DNA from: a virus
IMG/VR virus record: IMGVR_UViG_3300049855_000197
Coordinates: 1-36,983 of that record
Length of the DNA stretch: 36,983 nt
Strand: one strand, 5' to 3'
Below are positions 12,011 through 14,991 of the stretch, one piece after another. Within the stretch, counting starts at the first letter, position 1, and the number at the start of each line of letters is the position of its first letter. Below the pieces are notes generated by a model that saw only the letters and a program-made list of their open reading frames with translations, searched no databases and was not told where the DNA came from. Both the position numbers and the translations under genes were made by a program.

Positions 12011-12489
12011 TTCATCCCCTCGTATATCTCGTTTAGTGGTCTGGTTAGGTCAATGATTTTTTTGCATTTCGTTTTATCGTGTATCTGTCCATCTACATCC
12101 AATATCTCCCCATTTTTCCAAGCAAAGCATTTCCTAATGCTGCCAAAGGTATAGAATAAATCCCCCGCCTTAATCTCGTTATCTGCCTTGATGCGCTGGG
12201 CCTCCTCACCTAAACGTATAGCTTCGGAGAGGGGTATACAATACTGCGATTTGCAGTCTGAACCATAGCTTATGGGCCTTGGGATTATAGGTGACATTAT
12301 GTCTATCATTTTCTCGTTCATATCATTCTCCTTGGGTTTGATTGGTTTACGGTATCGGTATTCCGAGCATAAATTTTCTTTTGGATCATCGCGCTTATAC
12401 CATGTACCTATATAATAAAACTCAACATCTGGCCCTGGCTCAGTAGCCTTTTCGTACCATTCCCCGTAGTCAATGCCATCCTGTATCAT
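12007..12489 (-). CDS. Hypothetical protein, 160 aa, with internal start
   Basis: The protein seems to have two parts. Residues 1-56 form a small aromatic-rich module (EFYYIGTWYKRDDP, then SEYRYRKPIK). A second part starts at Met57 (12321) with its own AAGGAG site 6 nt upstream (MNEKMIDIMSPI); it contains EEAQRIKADNEIKAGDLFYT and a small beta-rich end. The full-length start at 12489 also has a good GGAGG site and is coupled to the RHH gene (ATGA). So either one fused protein or two products in the same frame. Function unknown. Confidence 0.62.
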   Translation of the reverse strand: MIQDGIDYGEWYEKATEPGPDVEFYYIGTWYKRDDPKENLCSEYRYRKPIKPKENDMNEKMIDIMSPIIPRPISYGSDCKSQYCIPLSEAIRLGEEAQRIKADNEIKAGDLFYTFGSIRKCFAWKNGEILDVDGQIHDKTKCKKIIDLTRPLNEIYEGMK

Positions 12490-12665
12490 TTATGTTCCTC
12501 CCTCTCTAATGTTTCTTTTGCTGCTCGATTAATAAAACTACTGCGCTTGCCTTCTGGGTAGGCAGCTTCCAGGCTCTCAATCACCTCTGAGTCAAATGAG
12601 AATGCCCGCCTAACCTTTTTAACTTCCTTGAATGGTGGCCCGCGCTTTTTATGCTTTTTGTTCAT
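12486..12665 (-). CDS. Ribbon-helix-helix (Arc/CopG-type) regulator
   Basis: The product is 59 aa from ATG 12665; a longer frame to 12743 would put the promoter inside the gene. After a basic N-terminal arm (MNKKHKKRGPP), the pattern fits RHH: a beta strand (RAFSF), helix A (SEVIESLEAAYP) and helix B after a turn (SSFINRAAKETLEREE). RHH proteins bind DNA as dimers and often repress their own promoter. Here a 24-bp palindrome covers the -10 box, and the -10 ends 7 nt before the ATG, predicting a leaderless mRNA. It is the first gene of the long leftward operon. Confidence 0.72.
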   Translation of the reverse strand: MNKKHKKRGPPFKEVKKVRRAFSFDSEVIESLEAAYPEGKRSSFINRAAKETLEREEHK

Positions 12666-12670
12666 AAGGA

Positions 12671-12701
12671 TTAAAATAGCATCGCCTATTTTAAATGTCA
12701 A
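12671..12701 (-). promoter_or_regulatory. Promoter of the RHH operon with palindromic operator
   Basis: The minus strand has -35 TTGACA (12696-12701), a 17-nt spacer and -10 TATTTT (12673-12678). A perfect 9-bp inverted repeat, TTAAAATAG/CTATTTTAA with a 6-nt gap (12671-12694), overlaps the -10 and spacer. Repressor binding there would block the polymerase. The expected transcription start is at or next to the A of the ATG (12665). Confidence 0.78.
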
Positions 12702-12705
12702 CCCA

Positions 12706-12756
12706 TTTCGCAAATATATTTTGTGGCCTGTCAATTTCCGCAAATGGTTGTATATT
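12706..12756 (+). promoter_or_regulatory. Divergent promoter and TTTSCGCAAA-type elements
   Basis: TTTCGCAAA (12706-12714) and TTTCCGCAAA (12735-12744) lie between the leftward RHH promoter and a rightward promoter-like pair: CTGTCA (12728-12733), a 17-nt spacer and TATATT (12751-12756). The second element is followed, on the minus strand, by another TTGACA (12729-12734), so the block looks like a decayed duplication. The same TTTCCGCAAA occurs at 9627-9636 before the other leftward promoter. Confidence 0.5.
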
Positions 12757-12762
12757 TTGGAT

Positions 12763-12920
12763 TCTCGCTTCCCTTTCTATTGAAAAGTTGAATGGTTAAG
12801 AGTGAGAGCAGAAGCTGAGTAGTCCGGACGGCAATCAGGATAATGCTTGGCTTCCGAATCTGGCCCCAGGCTAGACCTGGCAGTAGGATTCACCGGGGCC
12901 TAAATGGCCCCTTTCTTTTT
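12763..12920 (+). ncRNA. Candidate phage small RNA with terminator
   Basis: There is no open frame here. A promoter-like pair (12728-12756) would start a transcript near 12763, and a strong intrinsic terminator ends it at about 12920. Internal pairings visible by eye are GAAGC/GCTTC (12811-12815 with 12850-12854) and CCAGG/CCTGG around 12867-12880, so the RNA of about 158 nt would be well folded. No known RNA family is recognised. It lies between the RHH regulator and the replication operon, where antisense or regulatory RNAs are common in temperate phages. Confidence 0.5.
12895..12920 (+). terminator. Rho-independent terminator of the small RNA
   Basis: GGGGCC (12895-12900), a 5-nt loop and GGCCCC (12906-12911) are followed by a T-rich tract TTTCTTTTT. 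The stem is GC-only and the tail lies on the plus strand, so it terminates rightward transcription. Confidence 0.85.
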
Positions 12921-12981
12921 CCTGCAACTATAGATTTCCATATCGTCACCAAACCGGCTTTCCTGCTAATAAAAATATTTG

Positions 12982-13010
12982 TTGACTTTTACCCGTGGAG
13001 GTTGTAGATT
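12982..13010 (+). promoter_or_regulatory. Sigma70-type promoter of the replication operon
   Basis: TTGACT (12982-12987), a 17-nt spacer and TAGATT (13005-13010) predict a start near 13017-13018, exactly where the first arm of the long leader stem begins. The HNH gene starts 120 nt further on. Confidence 0.7.
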
Positions 13011-13017
13011 GTATTCC

Positions 13018-13137
13018 AGCGAAGAGGTTATTTCATGTTTAAATATTTTCTCAAAACGAACGCATCCAGGCAAAACATGGGATCCTCTTCGCTCGTCGAT
13101 CCTCCAGCTTGCGGTGCGTTCTTTTTGGGAAAAGTAA
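13018..13137 (+). promoter_or_regulatory. Structured leader upstream of the replication operon
   Basis: Two alternative folds are visible. Fold A pairs AGCGAAGAGG (13018-13027) with CCTCTTCGCT (13084-13093), a perfect 10-bp stem, with an inner stem CATGTTT/AAACATG (13034-13040, 13073-13079). Fold B pairs GAACGCA (13058-13064) with TGCGTTC (13115-13121), enclosing GGATC/GATCC, and is followed by TTTTT (13122-13126). A and B cannot form together as nested stems, and B is terminator-like. This is the layout of an attenuator. No known riboswitch is recognised. Confidence 0.5.
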
Positions 13138-13587
13138 ATGGCTAAAAATTCGTATTCTGAAAAGTTAAAAGACCCGCGCTGGCAAAAAAAACGGCTTGAA
13201 ATATTAAGCCGCGATAATTTTTCTTGCCTAATATGCGGGGATTCCGAATCAACTCTTCACGTTCACCATAGATACTATATCAATGGGCGGGAACCATGGG
13301 ATTATAATGATAATCTTTTAGCAACGCTTTGCGATTCTTGCCACAGTTCTGAGCACAGCCTAGAAGATATATCAAGCGACCTTATTAAAATGTTAAAATG
13401 CTTAGGATTTTTCAATTCTGATATATCTGGGCTTTGCATCTTGTTTCATTGCATGGAAATTAAATATCCTCCTCATGTTTTTATTGCGGCTTTAGATAAA
13501 ATCTTAACCTCAGAAAAAGGCATGAAAGATTTTATGGATGGTTATTTTAAAATTATTGCCATTGAAAACAAAGAAAAGGATAGCTAA
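13138..13587 (+). CDS. HNH endonuclease
   Basis: The product is 149 aa. It has a classic zinc-supported HNH core: CLICG (30-34), LHVHHR (40-45) with the catalytic His pair, the conserved Asn in DYNDNLLATLC (55-65), then CDSCHSSEH (65-73). HNH proteins nick or cut DNA; here the gene opens the replication operon and is coupled to the initiator gene by TAATG. It could be a free-standing homing-type nuclease or one with a role in replication or packaging. Ahead of the core is a basic helix (KDPRWQKKRLEIL). The ATG at 13138 follows GGGAAAAG. Confidence 0.88.
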   Translation: MAKNSYSEKLKDPRWQKKRLEILSRDNFSCLICGDSESTLHVHHRYYINGREPWDYNDNLLATLCDSCHSSEHSLEDISSDLIKMLKCLGFFNSDISGLCILFHCMEIKYPPHVFIAALDKILTSEKGMKDFMDGYFKIIAIENKEKDS

Positions 13588-14363
13588 TGGCTAAGAGATT
13601 CACGGATTCGGATAAATGGAAAAAACAGTGGTTTAGATGCCTTCCTCCTACCTGGAAATGTTTCTGGATTTATGTTTGCGACAACTGCGACCACGCCGGA
13701 ATATGGGATGTTGATTTAGACCTTGCGTCTTTCCAAATAGGAGCAAAGCTAGAATCTTCCAAAGTTTCCGAAATTCTAGGTAAACAAATTCTTGAAATCT
13801 CCAACGGGAAAAAGTGGTTTATTATCGATTTTATAGACTTCCAATATGGAGAGCTCAAGTCAAATAATAACGCTCATGCTTCGGTAATAAACATTCTTAC
13901 CCGTTTTGGATTGTGGGATTTTTATGTTAACCGCAATAATTTAGCCCCTTGTGAGCCCCTCAATAGCCCCTTGGTAGGGGCCCTGGATATGGATATGGAT
14001 AAAGAAATGGATAAGGATATGAAGGGGGATGCAAGGGGGAAACAAAAAATATTTGAGCGTATAGATGTTTGGTTTGAGAATCTAGAATTTACAATGGCCT
14101 GGGATGCATGGGAGGAAATGCGGAAAGCGTCAAAATCTAAACCAACAGAATACGCCAAGAACCTGGCTTTTACCAAGCTCAAGGGCTTGGCAGGTGATGA
14201 CCTGGGATTGGCTATCCAAATCGTTAACGCGGCTACCGAATCGAACTGGAAAACATTTTATCAACTCAAAGGGAACCAAAATGGAAAAACGTGTGAATCA
14301 GGAACCGACACACATAGACATAAAAAAAGATCTGGAGAGTTTTCTGAAAGCCTCTCCCTTTGA
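13587..14363 (+). CDS. Replication initiator (replisome organiser-like)
   Basis: The product is 258 aa. The N-terminal part (MAKRFTDSDKWKKQWFRCLP, then CDNCDHAGIWDVDLDLASFQ) matches phage initiators whose winged-helix domain binds the origin. The C-terminal part (AWDAWEEMRKASKSKPTEYA, then LAIQIVNAATESNWKTFY) resembles the end of lambda O-type proteins, which contacts the helicase loader. Between them, around residues 118-156, the DNA contains 11-bp-phased repeats (see the origin entry), as in lambda, where the origin lies inside gene O. The last 80 bases overlap the loader gene, and the tail they encode is low-complexity. Confidence 0.8.
   Translation: MAKRFTDSDKWKKQWFRCLPPTWKCFWIYVCDNCDHAGIWDVDLDLASFQIGAKLESSKVSEILGKQILEISNGKKWFIIDFIDFQYGELKSNNNAHASVINILTRFGLWDFYVNRNNLAPCEPLNSPLVGALDMDMDKEMDKDMKGDARGKQKIFERIDVWFENLEFTMAWDAWEEMRKASKSKPTEYAKNLAFTKLKGLAGDDLGLAIQIVNAATESNWKTFYQLKGNQNGKTCESGTDTHRHKKRSGEFSESLSL
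13943..14055. other. Candidate replication origin inside the initiator gene
   Basis: AGCCCCT starts at 13943, 13954 and 13965, and the inverted form AGGGGCC at 13976: four elements exactly 11 bp apart. GGATAT/GGATAA units fill 13985-14020. AAGGGGGA then occurs at 14022 and 14033, again 11 bp apart, followed by the AT-rich stretch AAACAAAAAATATTT. Because 11 is not a multiple of three, the copies lie in different frames, so selection on protein cannot explain them. The position, between the two domains of the initiator, matches lambda-type origins. Confidence 0.68.
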
Positions 14364-14991
14364 TCATGAATATGAGAGAAAACGATTAAAACGCTTAGAC
14401 GAGGAAGAAGAAGACAGAAAAAGGCGCGAAGCTAGAGAGTTAGCCAATTTAAAGGAAAGCCTATGGAGAAACTCAAATGTACCGGAAAGGCATAGGAGTT
14501 TCACCCTGCCCGATTCTGGGGCCTGGCTAGAGTCTTTTAAGTTTGTGAGTGGGCAAATGGGTTCCGGGACTCTTTTCCTTGTCCTAGGGCCTCGTGGGAC
14601 GGGTAAAACGCAAATCGCCACCGCATTGATAAAACAAGCTTGCTTTGAGGGTAAAAAATCGAAGTATTACAAGGCAATTGATATTTTTATCGCTTTGAGG
14701 GGGTCTTTTAGGAAAGACGGCGATTCAGAAATTGAGGTAATTGAGAGGTTTTTGAAACCGGATATTTTGGTAATCGATGCAATGGAAGAAAGAGGTGAAA
14801 CCCCATTTGAGGACCGGCTTTTGAATCACATCATTGATAAACGGTATGATAATCTATCCGATACGATTCTAATCACTAACCAAACAGCCGAAAAGTTCGC
14901 TGAATCTGTAGGGCCTTCGATTGTATCGAGAATCCATGAGACGGGTGATAAAATCGTCTGCGATTGGCCAAGCTTTAGGACTAAGAAATAA
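14281..14991 (+). CDS. Helicase loader, DnaC-like AAA+ ATPase
   Basis: The product is 236 aa from ATG 14281, preceded by AAAGGGAACC; it overlaps the initiator gene by 83 nt in another frame. The frame is open further upstream (an ATG lies at 14104), but that start has no better support. The charged N-terminal coiled coil (residues 35-60) would bind the helicase. AAA+ motifs are Walker A GPRGTGKT (103-110), Walker B ILVIDAMEE (162-170, with the second acid present), sensor-1 Asn200 in ILITN, and an arginine finger candidate in SRIHE (Arg217). It would load host DnaB onto the origin with the initiator. Confidence 0.85.
   Translation: MEKRVNQEPTHIDIKKDLESFLKASPFDHEYERKRLKRLDEEEEDRKRREARELANLKESLWRNSNVPERHRSFTLPDSGAWLESFKFVSGQMGSGTLFLVLGPRGTGKTQIATALIKQACFEGKKSKYYKAIDIFIALRGSFRKDGDSEIEVIERFLKPDILVIDAMEERGETPFEDRLLNHIIDKRYDNLSDTILITNQTAEKFAESVGPSIVSRIHETGDKIVCDWPSFRTKK

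Follow-up and report, generated by a model that had tools for sequence, protein, structure and literature searches.

The window analyzed here, i.e. the whole stretch of DNA under study, corresponds to the entire 36,983-nt IMG/VR record IMGVR_UViG_3300049855_000197, and encodes a terminase with ~50% identity to its nearest cultured relatives. The nearest relative in IMG/VR by terminase is G001, in which this protein is 92% identical to that of the window. Comparison of the window with G001 (L140, L168, and L169) reveals structural genes with 65-82% DNA identity and unrelated early regions, which reflects module exchange between these phages. The region of interest is a non-coding gap containing two elements that we named A and B, with a leftward operon of small genes on one side and a rightward HNH-replication operon on the other.

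The first gene of the rightward operon (13138..13587, + strand) encodes an HNH endonuclease. Its product matches PHROG HNH families (E 4e-18) and, as a sub-threshold hit, Pfam HNH (E 0.0024), and matches in both searches are confined to HNH families. It is followed by an O-like replication initiation gene (13587..14363, + strand; phrog_678, E 9.5e-06) and by a DnaC-like helicase loader ORF identified by Pfam/PHROG (14104..14991, + strand), the true start of which is possibly further in. The replication operon placed here by the preliminary description of this DNA begins with an HNH gene.

On the other side, a small divergent gene in the ORF list (12486..12743, - strand), with a likely start at ~12665, had been named an RHH regulator. 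Its sequence is RHH-like by eye, but this assignment found no backing in Pfam or PHROG, where the protein has no match, and no relatives were found in IMG/VR or among the phages searched. Within 12665-12701 (- strand), a -10-like site lies ~8 nt from its likely ATG, and the corresponding mRNA could therefore be nearly leaderless. An inverted repeat between the divergent promoters was considered as an operator and rejected, its 12 matches out of 16 being equaled in 23 of 300 shuffles, which is not significant.

Element A is a well-folded RNA candidate ending with a strong terminator

Element A (12763..12920, + strand) is predicted to form three consecutive hairpins (12763-12807, 12811-12854, and 12856-12891) followed by an intrinsic terminator, with few bases left unpaired. 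The + strand fold has a predicted energy of -60.2 kcal/mol and a z-score of -3.06 (1 of 200 shuffles was as good), compared with a z-score of -0.27 for the - strand. In sliding windows that were not fitted to the borders of A the folding signal is weaker, with a z-score of approximately -1.8 and a rank of 76 among 922. The terminator (12895..12920, + strand), which reads GGGGCC-TAAAT-GGCCCC-TTTCTTTTT, had been pointed out in the preliminary description and is confirmed by a strict rule, in which the stem must be perfect over 6 bp or more and include 5 or more G-C pairs, and 6 or more of the 9 positions that follow must be T. Only three such terminators are found in the whole 37-kb window, the mean in shuffles being 0.075 per strand.

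The promoter-like pair CTGTCA-17-TATATT reported upstream of A is present at 12728..12756 (+ strand) as a weak match in a promoter-pattern scan, but the region contains four such sites versus a mean of 7.3 in shuffles. Since shuffles carry more of them, neither this match nor that at 12982-13010 is above chance. Similarly, the reported lack of an ORF holds for gene-sized ORFs, but a 51-aa ORF starting with TTG (12628-12783) and a 54-aa ORF starting with ATG (12843-13007) overlap A, the latter spanning both its terminator and the next promoter-like site.

The sequence GGCCCC occurs twice in A, at 12862-12867 and 12906-12911, and either copy can pair with GGGGCC at 12895-12900. The upstream copy (12862..12867, + strand), which competes for this sequence, is thus a possible antiterminator arm. 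In nascent A RNA in which the terminator has not yet closed, pairing with the upstream copy is predicted to be preferred (-50.0 versus -45.8 kcal/mol). Because the upstream GGCCCC could undo the terminator, we consider it at least as likely that A would be an attenuated leader as that it would be a stand-alone small RNA.

Searches for relatives of A were negative. In agreement with the statement that no known RNA family fits, no Rfam family reaches its gathering score in the window, and the matches obtained up to E 10 are at chance level; the best sub-threshold match is SraG (E 0.65), which covers the terminator part only, and the int-alpA RNA (RF02996) has no match in the window. Conservation of A in relatives, proposed as a check in the preliminary description, was not found by blastn in INPHARED, with two 16-base patterns in IMG/VR (the matches of the first pattern sit in unrelated contexts), or in 162 related loci searched using local blastn/nhmmer and a single-sequence covariance model. 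Nor is A found in G001, whose early region is unrelated to that of the window. Two candidate relatives, L080 and L162, were rejected since their matches lie inside ORFs or are mainly terminator; the match in L144 is weak. The predicted duplex between A and B is not exceptional, since 85 of 200 shuffled versions of A paired with B as well as A itself.

Element B is a probable structured leader of the HNH gene

Element B (13018-13133), which was overlooked in the preliminary description, is a better-supported RNA element than A. It is preceded by a promoter-like pair, TTGACT-17-TAGATT (12982..13010, + strand), which is weak in the promoter-pattern scan. Close to where the transcript is predicted to begin, a segment that we named L1 (AGCGAAGAGG; 13018..13027, + strand) shows perfect 10-bp pairing with L2 (CCTCTTCGCT; 13084..13093, + strand). 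L2 lies in the loop of T, a long terminator-like hairpin (13046..13133, + strand; z-score -3.35, approximately -37 kcal/mol). In the core of T, GAACGCA (13058-13064) pairs with TGCGTTC (13115-13121), which is directly followed by the T-tract TTTTT (13122-13126). The stem is extended by pairing of UUUUCUCAAAA with UUUUGGGAAAA. The sequence GGGAAAA (13127..13133, + strand), the likely Shine-Dalgarno sequence of the HNH gene, is paired within T in the minimum free energy fold and is therefore covered. The T-tract lies ~15 nt upstream of the HNH ATG (13138), leaving no room for a separate promoter.

The two perfect helices of B, L1-L2 and the core of T, cross each other. Among 3000 shuffles, 2 contain perfect helices that cross and measure at least 9 and 7 bp, and the window has no such place besides B. 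According to these predictions, T and L1-L2 may coexist as a pseudoknot instead of being alternative folds, and for this reason a switch is one of two readings of B. No tandem repeats were seen in B by inspection or in the helix list, indicating a single unit.

A common architecture in leaders of homologous phage HNH genes

We took 39 distinct phage HNH genes with homology to 13138-13587 and compared the folding of their 130-nt leaders with that of 200 control ORFs. With gene starts in relatives picked by rule and z-scores computed from shuffles that moved two-base blocks and did not keep every dinucleotide, the mean z-score is -1.81 for HNH leaders versus -0.35 for control ORFs, and 44% of the former versus 8.5% of the latter have a z-score < -2. 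Reading these leaders revealed a recurring plan that begins with L1, which is frequently located in a hairpin loop, and continues with the terminator-like stem T, which has L2, the exact complement of L1, in its loop, with a T-tract, and finally with the start codon. The distance from the T-tract to the start codon ranges from a few bases to some tens, and the nuclease gene would therefore be read only by passing T.

We defined an L1-T(L2) leader as one in which a perfect L1-L2 helix of at least 7 bp joins the 5' end to the loop of a T-tract hairpin located within 75 nt before the HNH start. B, with its 10-bp L1-L2 helix, is such a leader and, as a sequence singleton, belongs to the class through architecture only. 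Scanning for L1-T(L2) followed by a T-tract gave matches before 8 of 44 HNH genes versus 9 of 1284 other ORFs (Fisher p 1.5e-8), an enrichment that does not come from an independent set because the plan was recognized by reading leaders that were later counted. These eight matches include the window itself and two near-duplicates; when the window, the near-duplicate L040, and the doubtful L029 (in which L1 is part of its own T stem) are left out, five matches remain and the excess is still clear. Applied with loose limits, the architecture scan returned 706 matches in 2.9 Mb, many of which occur by chance.

Some loci in this set carry known RNAs. Rfam identifies int-alpA RNA, which takes its name from its integrase/alpA neighbors, at L030:3917-3985 and L077:3917-3984, 16-17 nt upstream of homologous phage HNH genes; apparent sub-threshold relatives are seen in L008, L021-L023, and L028. 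This RNA thus resembles B in lying directly upstream of homologous HNH genes. As we read it, its extra pairing is to the 3' side, whereas that of B is to the 5' end. In a viral contig, L035:3443-3713 (- strand) matches permuted tmRNA in Rfam and adjoins an HNH locus.

L1-L2 pairing covaries in two other RNA families

No sequence homologues were found for either A or B, and covariation is seen in other families only. The first of these, A4, is an HNH-leader family of eight sequences located just upstream of HNH (L015, L038, L047, L048, L055, L057, L067, and L085) and equipped with Bacteroidetes-like promoters. Its design comprises two hairpins, H1 and H2, with mutually complementary loops of ~7 nt (kissing-loop), followed by a GCCC/GGGC terminator-like stem. 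H1, H2, T, and L1-L2 are all kept, and 17 of 24 pairs have changed on both sides.

The second family, A3, was found by the architecture scan and contains 24 standalone sequences from phages with an ERF recombinase. These RNAs, which are 98-144 nt long (L086-L133, e.g. L089:7480-7579 and L129:7400-7516, both on the - strand), carry a promoter-like sequence of their own, a terminator stem T of 23 bp, and a 7-bp L1-L2 helix. This helix is paired in all 24 sequences even though six of its seven pairs change on both sides, and there are 11 different L1/L2 pairs. L1-L2 changes faster than T (mean differences of 0.39 and 0.21, respectively). Covariation of the whole structure is 0.43, versus 0.19 in shuffles. 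In the two loci that we inspected, the RNA is on the same strand as, and downstream of, a small Cro-like gene (L129) or near the same place (L096); an HNH gene adjoins none of the standalone loci. In the loci scanned (four for A3), neither A3 nor A4 reaches an Rfam gathering score. Long-range L1-L2 pairing thus covaries in two RNA families other than that of the window. The helices, the terminator, the architecture common to HNH leaders, and its covariation in these two families are results of sequence and computation.

Discussion

Several known systems share features with this locus. In Clostridioides difficile RCd22-abiF, the order is promoter, RNA, terminator, and ORF, and a limitation of read-through by the terminator has been demonstrated (PMC12373285). 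Type III toxin-antitoxin systems (ToxIN) show the order promoter, structured RNA, terminator, and ORF (PMC5086642). RBS-sequestering hairpins precede the phage homing endonuclease genes I-TevI, segB, and Aeh1 mobE, as reviewed in PMC2988022. Considering this gene order and these hairpins, A and B can be read as successive attenuating leaders. Our model, in which two terminator-bearing leader RNAs would throttle the HNH-replication operon one after the other, seems to us about evenly balanced between right and wrong. We infer its transcription starts, termination in the cell, switching, and effect on expression. In brief, A would be transcribed from near 12763 and would mostly end at the GGGGCC/GGCCCC terminator, yielding an RNA of ~155 nt. 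Through pairing of the upstream GGCCCC with the 5' arm of the terminator, A could act both as an attenuator and as a source of short RNA. B would be the HNH leader, in which L1, the first ten bases, would pair with L2 in the loop of T, while T would end in the T-tract and hide the HNH ribosome-binding site. Most transcripts would thus stop, or stay untranslated, at A and B. HNH and the overlapping replication genes would be expressed only from those transcripts that read through and open T.

The preliminary description saw in A a candidate small RNA, and a terminated, well-folded + strand RNA is indeed plausible. That this would be a stand-alone, trans-acting RNA of ~155 nt, transcribed early in infection from a promoter of its own and targeting mRNAs of the host or the phage, is doubtful in our view. 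The compact fold, the 5' hairpin at the predicted start site, the strong terminator, and the absence of a gene-sized ORF would all suit such a molecule; the lack of homologues, the few unpaired bases available as a seed, and the unexceptional pairing with B, the partner that was screened, speak against a trans-acting role. The same orphan sequence, together with a modest z-score that weakens in unfitted windows, could mean that A is not a functional RNA, but a GC-richer piece of intergenic DNA that happens to fold, with a terminator for stray upstream transcription. The strand-specific folding signal makes this unlikely, and no upstream + strand gene needs the terminator because the neighbor is divergent. 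By analogy with HK022, where putL consists of two stem-loops in ~70 nt just after PL (PMC9378689), A could instead be a processive antitermination element whose nascent RNA binds RNA polymerase so that terminators are passed. A immediately follows a putative early promoter, its hairpins are little separated and precede a terminator, as in put, and no N-like gene was recognized. Yet put is short (~70 nt), has two stem-loops, and has a known activity, A has no leftward counterpart, and the likeness is one of layout, which makes this reading quite improbable.

For B, one close parallel is that with homing endonuclease hairpins. In both cases a structured RNA directly precedes the gene of a phage endonuclease and covers its RBS (in B by prediction), and mobE encodes an HNH protein like the gene downstream of B. 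These hairpins are on read-through transcripts, with a late promoter as an escape (PMC2988022). B differs from them by its T-tract and by long-range pairing of the loop with the 5' end. With RCd22-AbiF and type III toxin-antitoxin systems, B shares a structured or pseudoknotted RNA, an intrinsic terminator, and a protein gene without its own promoter. B and HNH might by analogy form an RNA-protein module in which the pseudoknotted RNA, in excess owing to the terminator, would bind and restrain the nuclease. The order shared with ToxIN (PMC5086642) and RCd22-AbiF (PMC12373285) and the association of the architecture with HNH genes are in favor of this. However, tandem repeats are absent from B, which is a single unit, the HNH protein is neither ToxN nor AbiF, and standalone A3 RNAs have no adjoining HNH gene. 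We therefore regard such a module as improbable. A bolder version, a two-part module of pseudoknotted RNA and small HNH nuclease in which the variable L1-L2 "code" would bind or direct the nuclease as an antitoxin or guide, appears highly improbable.

As for the broader meaning of the leaders, B-type RNAs probably hold HNH genes back. A few T-even phages are known to carry structured leaders in front of endonuclease genes. The terminator-plus-pseudoknot RNAs found before related phage HNH genes are a previously undescribed group. Our data suggest that this group is broad and diverse in sequence and has a single shared design, in which the loop of a terminator-like hairpin is paired with the 5' end through segments that are variable yet complementary, with no Rfam matches in the cases checked. 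The order promoter-RNA-terminator-nuclease raises the question of an RNA-protein pairing of the toxin-antitoxin type, and L1-T(L2) leaders represent a directly testable regulatory device.
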